This document shows, in pieces, positions 1-36,316 of a stretch of 64,000 nt of DNA. Both the position numbers and the translations under genes were made by a program. Under the pieces are notes generated by a model. That model was not told where the DNA came from. It worked only from the letters and a program-made list of their open reading frames with translations, and searched no databases. Source of the stretch: Pseudobdellovibrionaceae bacterium (lineage in GTDB: Bacteria; Bdellovibrionota; Bdellovibrionia; Bdellovibrionales; UBA1609); contig JABJQG010000019.1 of assembly GCA_018663505.1 (NCBI GenBank), positions 1 through 64,000 of the forward strand, in the 5' to 3' direction. Each line of letters begins with the position of its first letter. Position 1 is the first letter of the stretch.

Positions 1-30
1 ACGGCATAACTACCTCCAGTTATCCGTATA

Positions 31-84
31 AAGTGTAACCTATGTCGTGACTAGATAATGTTACCTATGTTCCTTTAGTAACAA
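31..84. mobile_element. Possible end of an insertion sequence
   Basis: Two direct repeats, TGTAACCTATGT (34-45) and TGTTACCTATGT (59-70), lie 25 bp apart. They stop just before the structured repeat that starts at about 85. Repeated short motifs near a terminus are usual for IS ends (for example the IS21 and IS481 groups). The neighbouring repeat is cut at this point: compared with the full copy near 33 kb it has lost its outer hairpin half and its left arm. That is what an insertion or a deletion beside an IS would leave. The transposase would lie upstream of the window, so this is inference from one boundary. Confidence 0.3.
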
Positions 85-247
85 AGGCGGCCCGAACCTG
101 CCAATTCCCCCACGTCGTGTGGGGGAATGTATAAGATAAAATCACAGAGACCTGAAGAAATTTAATTATTTATATATTCTTCAACACGATGTTGAAGAAT
201 TGCGGGTTTCAGGGGCGGCTAGCCCCTGATCTCCCATGGATGGAAAG
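85..247 (+). repeat. Structured repeat, truncated copy 1
   Basis: This stretch matches the reverse complement of 32966-33127 almost base for base in its stems. It holds a 10-bp hairpin (arms ATTCCCCCAC and GTGGGGGAAT, 103-127), an 11-bp hairpin (arms ATTCTTCAACA and TGTTGAAGAAT, 176-200) and an 8-bp hairpin (arms TCAGGGGC and GCCCCTGA, 209-229), and it ends in CCCATGGATGGAAAG. The spacer between the first two hairpins differs between copies while the stems are identical, so the stems appear constrained. The outer GGCCC stem is broken on the left. The 170 bases that follow, up to 420, show no gene or clear site. Confidence 0.85.
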
Positions 248-14361: not shown

Positions 14362-15624
14362 GTGAAAAAGCTCTATGTTCACTATGAAGGTCAAATTGTT
14401 GGGCAACTCACCCAAGATGACGATCTTATTTACTCTTATCAATATAATGATAACTGGCTGAACAATAAAAATAGTTTTCCTATCAGTCTTAGTTTGCCAT
14501 TGCAAAAAGAAGCTTTTGGCAACCGTCTGTCTCTTTCGTTTTTTGAAAACCTACTTCCCGAGGGAGATGTTAAGAAAGAAATTGAAGAAGCTCAGGCACT
14601 AAAGGGAGTTTTTAGTTTTTTAGAACAATTTGGTAAGGACTGTGCTGGGGCAATCACCGTGAGCCGCTCATTTGAGATTCCCCCAAACACTGGGAAAAAT
14701 AAAATAGAAATCGATCTTCAAAAAATCTATAGCGCAATGGAAGAAAAAAGAGCGATTGCTAATGTTATTGCAGAGGAAAATCCTGGTTATTTGTCTTTAG
14801 CTGGGGCACAAGATAAGTTTCCTGGCATTTATCACAACAGTCGTCTTTATCTGCCCATAGAAGGGCAACCCACGACACATATTATCAAGGCGCCCATTTG
14901 GCGTCACAATATTAAAGAGTCCGTTTATAATGAGCTATATATTATGCAACTTGCAAAGAGTGTGGGCTTCCAAATTCCCAACTGTTTTATTTTAAAGGGA
15001 CCACACCCATTGTTTATCATTGAAAGGTATGATCGTTATTTTAAAAAAAATAAGGATGTTCGTCGAATACACCAACAAGATTTTTGCCAAGCACAAGGGA
15101 TTGTTTCTGATAAAAAATATGAAAAAGAGGGTGGGCCAAGTATTAGAGCAAATTATGATCTGATTTTAAAACACGTATCTCCAAAAAAACGACTAGAATC
15201 TGTAGAAACTTTTCTCAAGTGGATATGTTTTAACCTCATTGTGGGAAATAACGATTGCCATTCTAAAAATATTTCCTTCCTCTATAATGAAGGTAAGGTT
15301 GAGTTAACACCATTTTACGATTTACTGTCGACCACAGTCTACCCCAAGCTTATACGTGCATTTGCCTATAAAATTGGTCAAACAACCGAGTATCATAAAA
15401 TGTCCACAAAGGAGTTCCATCTTACGGAACGCCTTATTGGAGTTAAGGAAGGGAAACTAATAACAATCTTTAACTTGGTTTTGCAAAAAATCTTAAAAGA
15501 ACGAAAAGCCATAACCCAAAAACTTATGGTTGAATATCCAGAGGTAAAAATTTTCAGCACTATCAATGAGGATATAGATCTTAGGGTAAAAACTTTTAAG
15601 AATCAGAATATTATTAATGAATGA
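14362..15624 (+). CDS. hipA: HipA-like serine/threonine kinase toxin
   Basis: 420 residues, full length, from GTG 14362. HipA toxins phosphorylate glutamyl-tRNA synthetase (or a related target) and stop translation, giving persistence. Seen here: the N-terminal domain with FFENLLPEGD, the LSLAGAQDKFPG loop (ATP/autophosphorylation region), the catalytic GNNDCHSKN motif and the metal-binding YDLLST. All key residues look intact, so the toxin is probably active. It overlaps nothing and ends just before the 3' end of a tRNA-Arg gene on the other strand. The target in this organism is unknown. Confidence 0.9.
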   Translation: MKKLYVHYEGQIVGQLTQDDDLIYSYQYNDNWLNNKNSFPISLSLPLQKEAFGNRLSLSFFENLLPEGDVKKEIEEAQALKGVFSFLEQFGKDCAGAITVSRSFEIPPNTGKNKIEIDLQKIYSAMEEKRAIANVIAEENPGYLSLAGAQDKFPGIYHNSRLYLPIEGQPTTHIIKAPIWRHNIKESVYNELYIMQLAKSVGFQIPNCFILKGPHPLFIIERYDRYFKKNKDVRRIHQQDFCQAQGIVSDKKYEKEGGPSIRANYDLILKHVSPKKRLESVETFLKWICFNLIVGNNDCHSKNISFLYNEGKVELTPFYDLLSTTVYPKLIRAFAYKIGQTTEYHKMSTKEFHLTERLIGVKEGKLITIFNLVLQKILKERKAITQKLMVEYPEVKIFSTINEDIDLRVKTFKNQNIINE

Positions 15625-18116: not shown

Positions 18117-18154
18117 TAAGGTACGCCGTACCTTTTGGTTTAGCTAAGCGTCAT
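18117..18154. repeat. Left 38-bp inverted repeat of the Y1 transposase element
   Basis: Matches the reverse complement of 18941-18978 at 36 of 38 positions (mismatches only at 18146-18147). It contains its own hairpin: arms AAGGTAC and GTACCTT around a GCC loop. A 10-base direct repeat GAGTAAGGTA (18105-18114 and 18115-18124) overlaps its outer edge. Confidence 0.9.
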
Positions 18155-18291
18155 TGAAGAAAGTAGAGAAAGTAGATGGCGTAGAACAAAAATTGAACTG
18201 TCCGGATTATTAATTCTTAAATTGAATATTCGGACACTAAATAGATTGTATTGCTTAATCAATTGTCATGAATTTTGCTACTAGGCAGTGT

Positions 18292-18936
18292 ATGCCTAGA
18301 AAAAAACCAAATTATAATCCGGAACATCCTATTCACATCACTGCTCGTTGTATTAACCAAATGTGGTTTGACTTACCCTTAGAAGAGGTCTGGATAATTT
18401 TTTCCAATTATTTATATTTTATATCACATGCTTTTAATATTGAAATCATTTCTTTTGTTTTGATGAATAATCATTTTCACTTGTTGGTGCACGATAGTAA
18501 TTTTAATATTTCAAAAGCAATGTGTTATTTTATGAGGGAAGTAAGTAAATCAATCACCATTGATACTAAAAGAGTAAATCAAACATTTGGTGGGCCTTTT
18601 CACCCTACAGTGATTGGCTCAACAGAGCATCTATTGAATGTTTATAAGTATATCTATCAAAATCCTTTAAGAGCCAAAATAGTTAGTCGAGCGGAGGAGT
18701 ATAAGTTCTCGACCTTACATGGGATACTTGGGTTAAGCCAAGCAACTATTCCGGTGACCTCCAGGTATGACAATCTTTTTCCTTTAGTGCAAGACACTAG
18801 CCATACCTTAAGTTGGCTTAATCATCATTATGACGACATTGAAATTGATCTTATTCGCAAAGGATTAAGAAGCCACCATTTTAAAATTGGAAAAAAAAGA
18901 AGTTGTCGTACCAAAATTGATTTGCCTAGCATTTGA
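18292..18936 (+). CDS. Y1 (HUH) transposase, RAYT family
   Basis: 214 residues from ATG 18292, chosen because family members start with M-P-R-K-K; ATG 18268 would add eight residues. The HUH metal-binding motif is NNHFHLLVH (about 58-66), and the catalytic Tyr lies in NVYKYIYQNPLRA (about 122-134). HITARC near the N terminus and MREVSKSI are typical of the family. Such enzymes nick single-stranded hairpins and move REP sequences, or are domesticated. The gene is intact with no frameshift and sits centrally between 38-bp inverted repeats. Confidence 0.92.
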   Translation: MPRKKPNYNPEHPIHITARCINQMWFDLPLEEVWIIFSNYLYFISHAFNIEIISFVLMNNHFHLLVHDSNFNISKAMCYFMREVSKSITIDTKRVNQTFGGPFHPTVIGSTEHLLNVYKYIYQNPLRAKIVSRAEEYKFSTLHGILGLSQATIPVTSRYDNLFPLVQDTSHTLSWLNHHYDDIEIDLIRKGLRSHHFKIGKKRSCRTKIDLPSI

Positions 18937-18940
18937 GTAA

Positions 18941-18978
18941 ATGACGCAAAGCTAAACCAAAAGGTACGGCGTACCTTA
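18941..18978. repeat. Right 38-bp inverted repeat of the Y1 transposase element
   Basis: Reverse complement of 18117-18154 with two mismatches, and with the same AAGGTAC/GTACCTT hairpin. Its last three bases form the TAA stop of the minus-strand gene at 18976-19512, so the element abuts or truncates that gene. Confidence 0.9.
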
Positions 18979-31119: not shown

Positions 31120-32913
31120 ATGCCATCAAAAAATCATTCAGATTTTCGCTCCATCACTAGAGAAGCTATTCGACAGATTCCTAAAACGTGGCAACGTTTT
31201 GGGGGGGGCTACATTCAACAGGTCTCAAAGCAGGAGCTGATTTTAGTAAATGTGCTGGCAGTTTTAGTAGGTATTGCCACGGGCTATGCCGCTATTTTGT
31301 TTCGGAAATTGATAGGTTTTTTACAAAATATAATCATGTATCAGAAAATTGGATTTGATTTAGCAGATCCTATTCAGCACACTTTGGGGTTTTGGATTTT
31401 AGCTGTGGTGCCATTGGGGCTTGTTGTATCCACCCTCATTACAAGGTGGTTTGCTGCTGAAGCCAAAGGGCATGGTATTCCAGAGGTTATTGAGGCTGTT
31501 CGTACCCGTGGGGGGCGTATACGAAAACGTATTCTAGCAATTAAGGCACTGTCCTCTAGTGTGACTATTGCCACAGGCGGATCGGTAGGGCGAGAGGGCC
31601 CCATTGTATTGATTGGTTCAACAATAGGTTCGGCATTTGGTCAGTTATCTCATTTGAGCCCCCGTTTAATTAAAACACTTGTTGGTTGTGGTGCCGCAGG
31701 AGCCATTTCTGCCACTTTTAATACCCCCATTGCTGGAGTTATTTTTGCTGTGGAAGTTATTATTTTAGAGTTGAAGACCAAGTCTTTTGTTCCATTGGTA
31801 ACGGCATCCGTTTTTGCAGCTGTGGTTTCTCGATATTATCAGGGAAATGCACCGGCCTTTTTTGTTCCTGAGTACTCACTCAAGGGACCTTCTGAGCTGG
31901 TATTTTATTTTGTTTTAGGATTACTTTCGGGGATAGTTGGCGCTTGGATCATTCGTATTGTTTATGGAATGGAAGACCTGGTGTTGAAATTAAAGATTCA
32001 CTTTTTGTTAAAGCCAGTTTTAGGTGGGTTGATTGTAGCAAGTATAGGGTTGTATTACCCGCAAATTTTTGGTGTAGGGTACGATACTATGACCCAGGTT
32101 TTGCAACAGAATCTCAGCTTATCGCTGATTTTAACTTTGTTAATTTTGAAACCATTAGTTATGAGTATCACTCTGGCAGTGGGTGGTTCGGGTGGGGTAT
32201 TTGCACCATTGCTTTTTATTGGTGCTATGCTGGGAGGGGCTTATGGAACAGTGGTACACTCTCTTTTTCCCGAGCTCACCTCAAGTCATGGGGCTTATGC
32301 ATTAGTAGCAATGGCGGCCTTATACTCTGCCACAAGTCGGGCCACATTTACAGCCATTGTGGTTTTGTTTGAAATGACTTTAGATTATTCTATCATATTA
32401 CCGTTAATGTTAGTTTGTGTGATTGCCGATCAATTTGCTTGGGTGATTCAAAAGGAATCCATTTATTCTTTAAAACTACTTCGAAAAGGTCTTAAGTTTA
32501 TCAATGATATTGGTGTTAACATTATGGGGATCACTTTGGTTAAAGATATTATGACCACAAAAATACAAACAGCCCATGTTAATATGTCCATTGCTGATGC
32601 GGGAAAGGACTTGCTGCCCAGTCATCATTCTGTTTACCCGGTGATAGATGATGAACAAAAACTGTGTGGTATTGTTCATCATGATGAAATTCAAGAATTG
32701 GCAGCCACAGGGGATGTTGACAAAAAGTTGAGTGAGCTTATGGAGGATGCTAAGGCTATAGTTTATGCCAATGATACTGTCCTGCAGGCTGTAAAAAAAA
32801 TTGAAAGTATAAGGGACCCAAGAATACTTGTTGTGGATCGGCGCTATGGGAGATTGCAGGGGATAGTGAGTCCTATTGATTTTGTTCGTTTAAGTGTGGC
32901 TGAAGAAAGCTAA
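31120..32913 (+). CDS. ClC-family chloride channel/transporter with CBS domains
   Basis: 597 residues: about ten or more membrane helices, then a CBS pair from about 470 to the end. The anion-path motifs are GHGIPEV (117-123; Ser of the classic GSGIP is replaced by His), GGSVGREGP (153-161, with the gating Glu159 kept) and GGSGGVFAPLLF (about 350). The gating Glu suggests exchange of Cl- for H+ or gated conduction, but the altered selectivity loop may change the anion preference. The CBS pair probably senses adenine nucleotides. It is transcribed alone; a structured repeat begins 14 bases after the stop. Confidence 0.9.
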   Translation: MPSKNHSDFRSITREAIRQIPKTWQRFGGGYIQQVSKQELILVNVLAVLVGIATGYAAILFRKLIGFLQNIIMYQKIGFDLADPIQHTLGFWILAVVPLGLVVSTLITRWFAAEAKGHGIPEVIEAVRTRGGRIRKRILAIKALSSSVTIATGGSVGREGPIVLIGSTIGSAFGQLSHLSPRLIKTLVGCGAAGAISATFNTPIAGVIFAVEVIILELKTKSFVPLVTASVFAAVVSRYYQGNAPAFFVPEYSLKGPSELVFYFVLGLLSGIVGAWIIRIVYGMEDLVLKLKIHFLLKPVLGGLIVASIGLYYPQIFGVGYDTMTQVLQQNLSLSLILTLLILKPLVMSITLAVGGSGGVFAPLLFIGAMLGGAYGTVVHSLFPELTSSHGAYALVAMAALYSATSRATFTAIVVLFEMTLDYSIILPLMLVCVIADQFAWVIQKESIYSLKLLRKGLKFINDIGVNIMGITLVKDIMTTKIQTAHVNMSIADAGKDLLPSHHSVYPVIDDEQKLCGIVHHDEIQELAATGDVDKKLSELMEDAKAIVYANDTVLQAVKKIESIRDPRILVVDRRYGRLQGIVSPIDFVRLSVAEES

Positions 32914-32926
32914 TGCTGTAGGGTTA

Positions 32927-33194
32927 TGGGTGGGTAGTTTTGAGCTACGGATTTTCGATTGGAACCTTTCCATCCATGGGAAATCAGGGGCTAGCCGCCC
33001 CTGAAACCCGCAATTCTTCAACATCGTGTTGAAGAATTTACAGTAAATTAAATATTTTCTGGTCACTAGAAGTTTATTTTATAGATTCCCCCACACGACG
33101 TGGGGGAATTGGTAGGCTCGGGCCGCCATAGGCCCGATCTCCCATGGATGGAAAGGTTCCAATTGGAAATCCGTAGCTCAAAACTACCTACCCA
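32927..33194. repeat. Structured cloverleaf-like repeat, complete copy 2
   Basis: A closing inverted repeat (32927-32981 with 33140-33194, 52 of 55 pairs) encloses four hairpins in a row: 32984-33004 (8-bp stem), 33013-33037 (11 bp), 33085-33109 (10 bp) and 33118-33137 (7 bp, TCGGGCC/GGCCCGA). The stretch 32966-33127 is the reverse complement of the copy at 85-247. The outer 39 bases of each arm are not in that copy, so they look specific to this locus. Either DNA strand, or its RNA, could fold into a four-armed cross. It fills the gap between the ClC gene and the DUF493 gene. Confidence 0.93.
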
Positions 33195-33234
33195 CTCAAA
33201 TTATCCGAGGACTTTTTGACGTTACTTGAAACTT

Positions 33235-33501
33235 TTAAAGAGAAAGCAGGCCCTTTATAGTGGACGCTTTTTGGTATATGGCAATTACGTGATCAGCGCT
33301 ATCTAATACAATGGAAATTGTGAGACTTGTATATTTGCCTTTTTGTGAATTTTTTTTCTGGCAGTCTATGTTTGGAAAGAGGGCCTCCACCTGAGGAACA
33401 CTTTCAGAAGGAACAATGAATTTAAAATGATACTCTGATGGCCACTGGTGCTCGGACTCCAGAAGGCTTTTTAATTTTATAAAGTCGTCATCTTTTAGCA
33501 T
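33235..33501 (-). CDS. DUF493 (YbeD-like) protein
   Basis: 88 residues, the usual length. The fold is ferredoxin-like: YHFKFIVPSE (strand 1), helix VPQVEALF, GKYTSLTISIVLDSADHVIAIYQK (strand, strand, helix) and a closing KGLLSL. Related to the lipoate regulatory protein YbeD of E. coli, whose role is unclear. Downstream of the RCC1 lipoprotein gene by 79 bases with no terminator seen between them. Confidence 0.8.
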   Translation of the reverse strand: MLKDDDFIKLKSLLESEHQWPSEYHFKFIVPSESVPQVEALFPNIDCQKKNSQKGKYTSLTISIVLDSADHVIAIYQKASTIKGLLSL

Positions 33502-33580: not shown

Positions 33581-36316
33581 TTAGAAATCTGCATGTAACG
33601 GTAGGTCACTCATCATGATGTACTCCGTACCCACTTGGCTAGACAAATTATTTCCCCAACAATAGATTTCTTCGGCACTATTAGAGTAGCATACGCTATC
33701 TTCGGCCAGGGAGAGTTCTGATAAGTCGCTAGGAAGAGTAGTGTTAGAAAGTGGAGTGCTGATAATGTTAGTGCCTCCTTCAAAAAAATTAGTTTGGTAC
33801 TGTGTATTTTGACCCCAGGAAAAAATATCACCTAGATCTGTGCGCACATATATATTATTAGGACCAGCTTTTAGGGATTGACTTGTAAGTGTGCCAAAGT
33901 TGGGTAGGGAGGTTGCGTATTTTGAATAATTAAATAATGCAGTGACGTACCCTAACTGGCTGAATGAATTTCCGCCCCAAGAATGGAGTTTGCCAACGCT
34001 ACTCACGGCATAAACTGAGGTTGCCCCGGCATCAATGTCAATAATGGATGTGAGTGAGATGTCAGCTCCTCCCCCTGGGTTCTCTATGTTGACAGGTGCG
34101 GGGGTGTAATTGTTAGCATTGTTTATGGTTCCATTACCTAGTTGAGCCTGTGAGTTTTCTCCCCAGCAATAAACCTTGTCATCCACTGATTTTAAAATAC
34201 AGTTAAAATTTAATCCAGATACAATTTTTTGAGCATTTCCCCCACTATTTACAATTGTGGGGGTGTAAAATGGGCCAGCGCTCATTTGTCCTGCTTGTTG
34301 CGAGGAATTACCTCCCCAGCAATAGGTAATATTATCTGTAGAAATGCCACAACTATGGTTCTCGCCAAGGGCAAGAGTTTTGAACTCCTCGCCGGTACCT
34401 AATAGGTTGTCTTCAACAACTTGAACAGGATGATAAACTTCAGTTGGAGAGTTTCTGTCATCGTTACCTAGTTGGCCTTGATTATTGTTGCCCCAACAGA
34501 ACACACCTCTGTATGAGCCATCGACAAGTGAGTCAATGACACACGCATGATGACTCCCTAATTTCAGTTTTGAGGGATTGATTAAGTTTGGAATGGTCAA
34601 GGCTAAATGACTGTGGTAAACGGCCCCAGTATTAATACCTGAGACCCCCAATTTTCCCCATGAGTTACTGCCCCAACATTGTACTTCGTTAATAGCTGGA
34701 TTGGCAGATTTTACTAGAGCACATTTAAAATCTGTACCACTTTCAATTCTTAAAATTTCACGACCAGAAGTAAAAGACTCTAACTTAACTGGAGAGCCAA
34801 AAAAATCACCCTTGTATTTAATGAGTTGATTTTGCATATTGTTGCCCCAGCATTGAACATCATTTGATAGACTGAATCCACATGTAAAATCATTTCCCAT
34901 GGCCAAGTGGCTAAATTCCAAACCGTTGTCATTGATGAGAGTCAGGGATGTTAAGTTAGTCATGCTTCCGTTGCCCAATTCACCCATAGAGTTTGTTCCT
35001 AGACAGTACCTGCCTACTATTCCAGAAGATTTATTTAATAAACAGACTTCACTTCCGCCATTCATATAAATGGACTGAAGTTGGCCAGTAGTGGGTTGAC
35101 CTGGGACTACAGAAAATGCAGCGGCACCGTCGTAACAATAAAGCTGATCAGAATTTGCTGCATCAGTATAGCAGAAAGCACTGATGCCCTTTCCAAGAGC
35201 CACTAGGCCGATGTTCACTGTATCGTTGATATCAGGGTGACTTATGGGAACATAACTTTGCGTAGCATCTATACTACCCCAACAACGAGTGACTTTTTTA
35301 TTCACTTTGGACATATCAGTAAGTAAGGCGCAGCTAATATTTTGACCTAAAACAAGGTGATCCACGCTTAGGTTTTCAGTACTGAAATCAAATTCAAGCA
35401 GCGTGGGAGTGGCATAACTACTAGTAGTAAAATCTTGCCCAATCTGTCCATCTGAATTATTACCCCAGCAGTAAATACTTCCAGAAAACTCAAGGGCACA
35501 GGCGTGATCTAGCCCAGCTGAAATGTCCACTATGTTGCTGAGTTGATCCAGCTTTTGAGGATTGGTATACATAGTAACACTTGGGGATGAGTTAGAGTCG
35601 GTGCCTTGGCCAATTTGACCGGAGTTATTATCTCCCCAGCAATAAACCTCTCCTCCCTCTGTGAGAGCACAAGAAAAGCTATCTCCTGTGGCCACATCTT
35701 TAAATTTTTCGGGAAATCCAAAGTCAGGTATCTGAGGTTCATTACGCATATACATATCGCCAGTGCCCATCTGTCCCATAGCGTTGTCTCCCCAGCAATA
35801 AACACTGCCGCTAGAAAGCATACAACCATGGCTTCTGCCAGCCTCCATAATGTTTTGGCCCGAGTGAATTTTGTCTTTGTAGTGAATGTTAACTACTAGA
35901 GCGTCAGAGAGGAAACCATCAAAATACTCGGACTTAACATAGACGCTACGTTGACCAAAAGCTCCTTCTGAAAAACCTAGTTGAGACCCATCTGTTTCTA
36001 ATGCGAGCTTGAAACTTCCCTTGTAGCCACATTCATTGATCTGTTGGGTAAATTCATTAAAATTTAAGTTCTTAGGAAGGTTAGACCAGTTAACGCCATC
36101 AGTGGAAAGATGAATGTCTTTAACATTGTTGGAGCAAGCGCCTTCCACATAAACTTTTGAAGCTACTTGGAAAATTGAAATATTGGTGTCACTGATGTTA
36201 GGAGGCTCGTTGCCACCGTAATCACCACTAGGTACAAGTTGGCTCATTTCAGGAACCACACTGCCACATGCAGTGAGTATAATGATTGAGAAACTCAATA
36301 AAGCTATTTTAAACAT
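33581..36316 (-). CDS. RCC1-repeat lipoprotein
   Basis: 911 residues. The signal peptide ends in LTACGS (lipobox, Cys17), then a linker and an Ig-like domain (about 40-135). From about 155 to the end there are some 12-14 repeats of about 50 residues with the core CWG-x-N-x-x-GQ-x-G and a preceding G-x-x-H-x-C-A, the RCC1/BLIP-II pattern that builds one or two seven-bladed propellers. Bacterial members usually bind proteins on the cell surface or in the periplasm. GAGG precedes the ATG. Ligand unknown. Confidence 0.9.
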   Translation of the reverse strand: MFKIALLSFSIIILTACGSVVPEMSQLVPSGDYGGNEPPNISDTNISIFQVASKVYVEGACSNNVKDIHLSTDGVNWSNLPKNLNFNEFTQQINECGYKGSFKLALETDGSQLGFSEGAFGQRSVYVKSEYFDGFLSDALVVNIHYKDKIHSGQNIMEAGRSHGCMLSSGSVYCWGDNAMGQMGTGDMYMRNEPQIPDFGFPEKFKDVATGDSFSCALTEGGEVYCWGDNNSGQIGQGTDSNSSPSVTMYTNPQKLDQLSNIVDISAGLDHACALEFSGSIYCWGNNSDGQIGQDFTTSSYATPTLLEFDFSTENLSVDHLVLGQNISCALLTDMSKVNKKVTRCWGSIDATQSYVPISHPDINDTVNIGLVALGKGISAFCYTDAANSDQLYCYDGAAAFSVVPGQPTTGQLQSIYMNGGSEVCLLNKSSGIVGRYCLGTNSMGELGNGSMTNLTSLTLINDNGLEFSHLAMGNDFTCGFSLSNDVQCWGNNMQNQLIKYKGDFFGSPVKLESFTSGREILRIESGTDFKCALVKSANPAINEVQCWGSNSWGKLGVSGINTGAVYHSHLALTIPNLINPSKLKLGSHHACVIDSLVDGSYRGVFCWGNNNQGQLGNDDRNSPTEVYHPVQVVEDNLLGTGEEFKTLALGENHSCGISTDNITYCWGGNSSQQAGQMSAGPFYTPTIVNSGGNAQKIVSGLNFNCILKSVDDKVYCWGENSQAQLGNGTINNANNYTPAPVNIENPGGGADISLTSIIDIDAGATSVYAVSSVGKLHSWGGNSFSQLGYVTALFNYSKYATSLPNFGTLTSQSLKAGPNNIYVRTDLGDIFSWGQNTQYQTNFFEGGTNIISTPLSNTTLPSDLSELSLAEDSVCYSNSAEEIYCWGNNLSSQVGTEYIMMSDLPLHADF

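Follow-up and report, generated by a model that had tools for sequence, protein, structure and literature searches.

IS200/IS605 elements and their MITE derivatives carry hairpin ends which are unlike on the left and on the right, and they include gene-less copies. Among dispersed bacterial palindromes, the closest described systems are REPs, which have been described as lying behind genes and as forming inverted dimers, often of unlike partners and sometimes as part of a longer palindrome (PMC3733652). The same account reports REPs at gene ends without a proven RNA role, and CGTC REP families without a dedicated transposase (PMC3733652). RAYTs usually occur as a single full-length gene per REP type, according to part of a review of HUH transposases which also covers the Y1 enzymes of the IS200/IS605 type (PMC6006769).

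Here, we analyse a four-hairpin element from a Pseudobdellovibrionaceae bacterium. The window, i.e., the whole stretch of DNA that was analysed, comprises 64,000 nucleotides (contig JABJQG010000019.1, positions 1 to 64,000, assembly GCA_018663505.1); the genome to which it belongs is designated G000.

Anatomy and fold of the element

A preliminary description of the window, made from the sequence, had reported four perfect hairpins enclosed by long arms at 32927-33194, together with a second copy near the start of the window. Both components of the element were confirmed: hp1a, hp2a, hp2b and hp1b are all present, and of the 55 positions of the arms, 52 are complementary and three form G-T pairs. 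The features are as follows.

32927..32981: left outer arm, 55 nt, pairs with 33140-33194; its inner end TTTCCATCCATGGGA is common to most copies
32985..33003, plus strand: hp1 of module A (hp1a), stem CAGGGGC/GCCCCTG, loop of 5 nt
33004..33011, plus strand: linker of module A, AAACCCGC
33012..33038, plus strand: hp2 of module A (hp2a), stem ATTCTTCAAC, loop ATCGT
33039..33084, unstranded: spacer separating the two inverted modules, variable as judged by its sequence and by the hp2-centre distances in 47 copies
33085..33109, minus strand: hp2 of module B (hp2b), stem ATTCCCCCAC, loop GTCGT (minus strand)
33110..33118, minus strand: linker of module B
33119..33136, minus strand: hp1 of module B (hp1b), stem CGGGCC/GGCCCG
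33140..33194, unstranded: right outer arm, pairs with 32927-32981
86..247, minus strand: second copy, in the opposite orientation, broken inside hp1 of module B
1..83, minus strand: end of an IS481-family insertion sequence which interrupts the second copy (IS end pattern at C26:59-83)

Each element is built of two inverted copies of one module of ~70 nt. In this module, the outer arm ends in TTTCCRTCCRTGGGAGATC, or in a variant such as CGTCCTGACAATC. Next to it stands hp1, a short hairpin rich in G+C, from which a linker of ~7 nt leads to hp2, the longer hairpin, with a (A/G/T)TCGT loop closed by a C-G pair. The RNA fold of the element reached -174.6 kcal/mol (z -19.9) and its DNA fold a z of -18.1, each better than 200 out of 200 dinucleotide shuffles, and both the hairpins and the arm pairing at 32927-33194 are genuine, far beyond chance.

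The element lies between an ORF ending at 32913 and, on its right, an opposite-strand frame of 88 aa ending at 33235, followed by the next long ORF on the same strand, which ends at 33581. No intrinsic terminator (a G+C-rich stem, then a T run) was found in 32700-33500. In line with the initial statement that the element matches no known riboswitch, no Rfam family was reached at its gathering score, the best match scoring 27.5 bits for a gathering score of 144; identity with an Rfam structured RNA or riboswitch was rejected, as the matches were sub-threshold and due to chance.

Copies in the genome and insertion of an IS481-family element

Two copies had been noticed initially; the genome of 3.78 Mb contains about 70 loci of this repeat. 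By blastn, the element gave 74 matches in its own genome, both orientations counted, while a 19-nt word of the arm gave 97 matches at up to 3 mismatches and its reversed control none. A covariance model of the half-element, with 150 of 790 candidates scored, retrieved 118 module matches, of which 115 had E <= 1.4e-5, and 65 stretches around copies, then four more, were taken for study. Two inverted modules were present at 47 of the 56 hairpin sites. Arm sequence and length proved variable, several copies having no matching arms, and inspection by eye showed no target duplication. In three copies (G000:C72:47066-47118, C44:12891 and C41:163221) the middle has been lost by deletion, and the deletion ends fall within the inverted repeats, which is what stem formation in single-stranded DNA would predict. 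Another copy (L057; G000:C43, near 14640-14690) contains a GAAA tetranucleotide run inside its spacer.

The second copy of the window had been described as keeping all its stems, with a change in the spacer between two of them. The altered spacer, from hp2a to hp2b, was found as stated; the stems were not, as only three hairpins and one arm survive. Since window positions 1-83 belong to the end of an insertion sequence, this copy begins at 86 within its fourth hairpin. The transposase of the same IS481-family element is located on contig C56 and matches NF033577 (E 3e-54, 184.5 bits, below the model cut-off of 224). Eight right and ten left ends of this element were found in the genome; all 17 with a visible flank lie inside hp1 of a module, one left end being a contig start. 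Apart from window positions 1-83, the sites are at the ends of G000 contigs C3, C6, C14, C24, C26, C31, C34, C36, C38, C53, C56, C58, C64, C66, C69 and C70. The IS481-family element seems to insert only into hp1 of the four-hairpin element. REPs are known targets of insertion sequences, namely IS3, IS110, IS4, IS256 and IS5 (PMC1525189); IS481 is absent from the text of that paper.

Compensated stems and two different ends

Comparison of 85 distinct modules revealed standard pairs in 98.7% of 1444 stem cells (77.3% in shuffles) and 332 double-changed cells (101 in shuffles), although these cells are non-independent, a few stem types being shared among the copies. The non-standard cells comprised 19 unpaired and 2 G-U. 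There are eight distinct, perfectly complementary hp2 stems and six such hp1 stems, and a change of stem amounts to a complete Watson-Crick replacement. These values give good support to the selection on structure that had been postulated from two copies. Uncompensated variation of stems, which the preliminary description had named as contrary evidence, was not seen, further copies varying with compensation. The scarcity of G-U pairs favours a structure at the level of DNA.

The 3' strand of hp1 forms, together with the linker (columns 28-41 of alignment A3), a mirror repeat which co-varies with the stem and for which the variants GAGG/CTCC, GGGG/CCCC and GAGAG/CTCTC were observed. It was satisfied at 146 of 176 positions (shuffled mean 109, maximum 129 in 5000), in a test which ignores relatedness and in which one of 44 rows (L164, second) is a chance hairpin, and for these reasons the mirror repeat remains a suggestion. 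Sequences such as GCCTC GAG CTCCG and GTCCTC GAG CTCCTG might adopt an intramolecular triplex fold and contribute to a recognition code.

The two modules of one element always differ. The same hp2 stem occurred twice in none of the 47 elements in which both modules could be read, while 11.2 such elements were expected from random pairing, and none of 10,000 trials of random pairing gave zero. In 45 of the 47, a CCAC-type stem (or a mutated form of it) is combined with one of the TTCAAC or TAATGGC type, and the remaining two elements contain two CCAC-type stems that are one base pair apart. Likewise, in G095, a genome of another family from the same order, hp1 of the GAGG type is paired with hp1 of the GGGG type in the seven elements in which both are readable (L160, L161, L172, L173, L175, L177 and L179), some with AGGG on the 5' side. 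Such pairing points either to avoidance of long perfect palindromes or to a difference in function between the two ends, as exists between left and right in IS200/IS605 elements. Arm similarity is also higher within a copy than between copies, to a degree reached in 0 of 5000 permutations (26 pairs), a result compatible with selection for pairing or with correction by template switching.

Placement relative to genes

In the genome of the window, the context could be resolved for 46 of the 56 sites, the other ten being at contig edges. Copies were located between convergent genes in 23 cases, tandem genes in 18 and divergent genes in five, whereas the 46 gene pairs of the window taken for comparison were convergent in nine cases, tandem in 28 and divergent in nine. 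The convergent excess (23/46 against 9/46 window gene pairs) corresponds to a Fisher p of 0.004. Between tandem genes, the copy was nearer to the end of the upstream gene in 17 of 18 cases, and none of the 46 context-resolved sites lay inside an ORF of at least 100 aa. Among the 30 elements of G095 (14 tandem, eight convergent, two divergent, five within long frames and one at an edge), the convergent excess was absent. Copies were also observed between rpsG and fusA in two genomes (L132 in G130 and L133 in G123) and beside fusA and rpsJ in a third (L155 in G052), these genes being named by eye from the sequence.

Relatives in other genomes

With blastn, no convincing match to the element was obtained in 97 relatives, the only one being a 23-bp word in G017. 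The preliminary description had proposed a covariance search of related genomes, and searches of this kind showed that other families of the order share the architecture. A first model (R1) retrieved 11 modules in G095 and one in G052; its match in G012 was rejected by eye. The second model (R2), built from the modules of the window's genome and those found with R1, retrieved at least 36 modules in G095, four in G052, two in G130, one in G123 and one in G106, plus weaker matches. At E <= 0.001, R2 reached 14 other genomes, of which these five were accepted, G108 and G124 were accepted for the long hairpin only, and the remaining seven were rejected, their matches having a chance look by eye. 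The inverted pair of modules around a spacer is retained in relatives wherever both modules survive. In G108, GGCCATCCTGAGCGGCC is repeated together with the hairpin TCAAGCGC-ATCGT-GCGCTTGA in at least three copies (L135, L148 and L152), and this repeat looks like a reduced relative of the four-hairpin element.

A first exact-pattern scan of a collection of genome contigs gave no match. A second pattern gave none in viral contigs and 70 stretches (L192-L261) in the genome contigs, mostly from Desulfovibrio and Solidesulfovibrio. The core AATCGGGGC-loop-GCCCCGAACCCCGC, with a second hairpin behind it, was observed as a repeat in these two genera, in Clostridia, in Magnetococcales and in others. 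The Desulfovibrio-type stretches share the core of short hairpin plus linker, their second-hairpin loops being different and often ATGAT. We do not claim homology for them, in view of these other hp2 loops and of the absence of any relative of the Y1 proteins among the 70 stretches.

Linkage to Y1 transposases

In G095, which contains 18 Y1_Tnp matches, the modules are borne by two multi-copy Y1 families, Y-I (five full-length copies, 171-197 aa) and Y-II (nine copies, 191-217 aa among those measured), and a module or half-module adjoins 13 of these 14 genes. Two Y-I genes (L302 and L303) are enclosed by two inward-facing modules, with module matches of E 7.6e-14 and 3e-9. A third (L297) has a complete gene-less element just 3' of it, a fourth (L299) is followed at the same place by the left part of such an element, with the spacer seen at L297, and the fifth (L298) retains only a degenerate arm. 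A half-module with its arm facing the gene is located upstream of every Y-II gene, the one at L300 being cut by the contig end. Beside the four G095 Y1 genes of other types (L263, L268, L273 and L277), the only module match is a weak one at L263 (E 0.25).

The gene-less element at L297 matches both ends of the gene-bearing element at L302, with 85% identity over 138 nt and over 75 nt, and the one at L299 does so with 79% over 76 nt and 83% over 75 nt. The ORF of L302 occupies positions 1526-2041 on the minus strand of a 3601-nt locus and ends at oriented position 2076; as the right match begins at oriented position 2053, the spacer holds the last 24 nt of this ORF. Judging by these alignments, the gene-less copies beside L297 and L299 look like internal deletions of a gene-bearing element.

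Proteins of this Y1 lineage score above the Pfam Y1_Tnp cut-off (PF01797, 25.5 bits against 23) and contain an HUH motif in the form HIH or HLH, while their matches to the NCBIfam IS200 and RAYT protein models, NF033573 among them, are below the cut-offs. For P0002, no solved relative was found at E <= 1. The Y-I protein has matches at E <= 1e-10 in 77 of 140 genomes of the order. The flanks of the nine best Y1 relatives outside G095 were mostly uninformative, G034 excepted. This genome, from the window's own family, holds at least 25 relatives of the Y-I protein, and arm motifs or related hairpins were present within 500 nt upstream of 13 of 14 examined Y1 genes, as matched by eye and by short motifs rather than by a covariance model. 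In four other genomes of the family, isolated arm-like words occurred at one of six Y1 genes and the architecture at none. In G052, a hairpin with an ATCGT loop lies beside both Y1 genes of the lineage (E 5e-4 and 0.055, the second being weak).

The Y-I protein itself gave no match in the genome of the window, a draft of 72 contigs which is 97% complete; since no such transposase was found, the copies look orphaned. It is possible that a transposase copy was missed in this draft assembly, in which many contigs end in these repeats. Nine other Y1/RAYT-like loci are present and show no module match at E <= 1. The repeats that flank them, where visible, are unrelated to the module and mostly AAAAGGTACG- or AAAAGGTGCC-like, and the RAYTs of this genome were rejected as mobilisers because their flanking repeats differ and no module adjoins them. 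One RAYT-like gene is located in the window at 18268-18936 (REP-associated tyrosine transposase model NF047646, 53.6 bits, below the cut-off of 80), with inverted repeats (AAGGTACGSCGTACCTTTTGGTTTAGC) near 18118-18155 and 18940-18978 which are unrelated to the four-hairpin element.

Origin and possible function

The element is probably non-autonomous, REPIN/MITE-like mobile DNA, moved in single-stranded form by Y1 (HUH) transposases. Its modules would be the recognition ends of a Y1 lineage related to IS200/IS605 TnpA and to RAYTs. In single-stranded DNA, the difference in stems would make each module fold into its own hairpins, and the arms would pair together; the transposase would probably bind and cut at the modules and move the segment, gene-less copies being moved in trans. 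From the relatives, on which the Y1 link rests, we infer that Y1 enzymes bound the hairpins, cut single strands and moved copies in this genome also, whose about 70 copies would be an orphaned population. Against transposition by Y1 enzymes stand the absence of any match to the transposase in the window's genome, where nine other Y1/RAYT-like loci have no adjoining module, the lack of arms and hairpins at most Y1 genes sampled in four other genomes of the family, the lack of a target duplication to the eye and the sub-cut-off scores with the NCBIfam IS200 and RAYT models.

The structure recognised in the preliminary description is maintained, but the evidence favours dispersed mobile DNA over an isolated structural RNA. 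Transcripts acting at gene ends, through termination, mRNA stabilisation or the entry or blocking of an RNase, would be in keeping with the very stable RNA fold, the enrichment between convergent genes, the position of 17 of 18 tandem copies and the copy found between rpsG and fusA in both G130 and G123. We consider such a role unlikely, as RNA stems usually drift via G-U pairs, which occupy 2 of the 1444 cells, no terminator-like T run follows the stems, blastn found nothing but a 23-bp word in 97 relatives and the modules are linked to Y1 genes; moreover, REPs show the same gene-end placement without a proven RNA role, as reported in part of PMC3733652. Convergent placement, strictly maintained palindromes and two fixed, different ends could also be expected of a DNA element with a cellular role, for instance one bound between convergent genes by a nucleoid protein or by gyrase, which would have spread and been kept by selection. 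Its distribution is, however, patchy, its stems differ in every lineage, none of the 97 relatives gave a convincing blastn match and modules are elsewhere linked to Y1 genes, all of which makes this explanation improbable. Least probable of all, and by our estimate very improbable, is a MITE of an ordinary DDE transposase with the long arms as terminal inverted repeats: these arms are more alike on the left and right of one copy than between copies, but neither their sequence nor their length is constant, matching arms are missing from several copies, inspection by eye showed no target duplication and the Y1 type is the sole kind of transposase gene found with the modules.

Returning to single-strand transposition by Y1 enzymes, we tentatively put forward a broader proposal, which is possible rather than probable: these elements may represent a clade of single-strand transposons whose two-hairpin ends must differ, as a left/right code, and which co-evolve with multi-copy Y1 transposases and leave orphans after loss of the gene. 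Partnerless REP-like repeats such as the CGTC families may have had a transposase that died out, or may be moved by others. Here, gene-bearing copies, deletion derivatives and gene-less copies coexist in one lineage and gene-less copies alone occur in a related one, so that the loss hypothesis becomes directly testable. Ends that always differ, and stems that change without G-U intermediates, provide concrete predictions on single-strand DNA recognition.

Comparison with known systems

No description of the element was found in the literature within the scope of the search, which left out most subscription journals, and the linker string CCCCGAACCCC retrieved unrelated papers only. The GTAG tag occurs at neither stem foot in the alignment, the sequences 5' of hp1 and hp2 being GGGAGA(TC) and CCGC/CACC, respectively. 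Taking CGTC REPs as a tag beside a stem of 8-9 bp with a short CCA-type tail, the CGTC/TGTC/CCTC tag lies beside neither stem, CGTCC being confined to the outer arm, in some modules.

Like IS200/IS605 elements, the present system combines a Y1_Tnp domain with an HUH motif, unlike hairpin ends and gene-less copies. It differs from them by its ends of two hairpins each, by its long arms, which pair, by a gene placed inside the pair or just outside it, and by a score of only 20.6 bits with the NCBIfam IS200 model, for a cut-off of 55. With RAYT/TIRYT systems it shares Y1 transposases of similar size with flanking inverted repeats. About nine loci of that type are present in the window's genome, one of them in the window, and none has a module; a RAYT gene flanked by the same repeat is absent from this genome and found in G095 (13/14). 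Since Y-I and Y-II are multi-copy while RAYTs are usually single, they are nearer to insertion sequences.

As far as the cited sections characterise REPs and REPINs, the element resembles REPINs and REP heterodimers, which are also interspersed intergenic palindromes in inverted pairs, often with different stems and mostly behind genes. In the broad sense, the element is a REP/REPIN, being a repeated intergenic palindrome arranged as inverted dimers behind genes. As in some REP dimers, its modules sit inside a longer palindrome and, like CGTC REPs in that account, its copies here have no partner transposase. In contrast to REPs, described there as one hairpin of 20-40 bp, the unit is two tandem hairpins and a linker in ~70 nt; unlike in REPINs, as presented there, same-stem pairs are absent (0/47) and the transposases of relatives are multi-copy. 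Collectively, the shared REP organisation, the two-hairpin unit and the absence of GTAG and CGTC tags make the element REPIN-like while placing it outside the named REP families, and we conclude that it is a new variant of REPIN-like non-autonomous elements.
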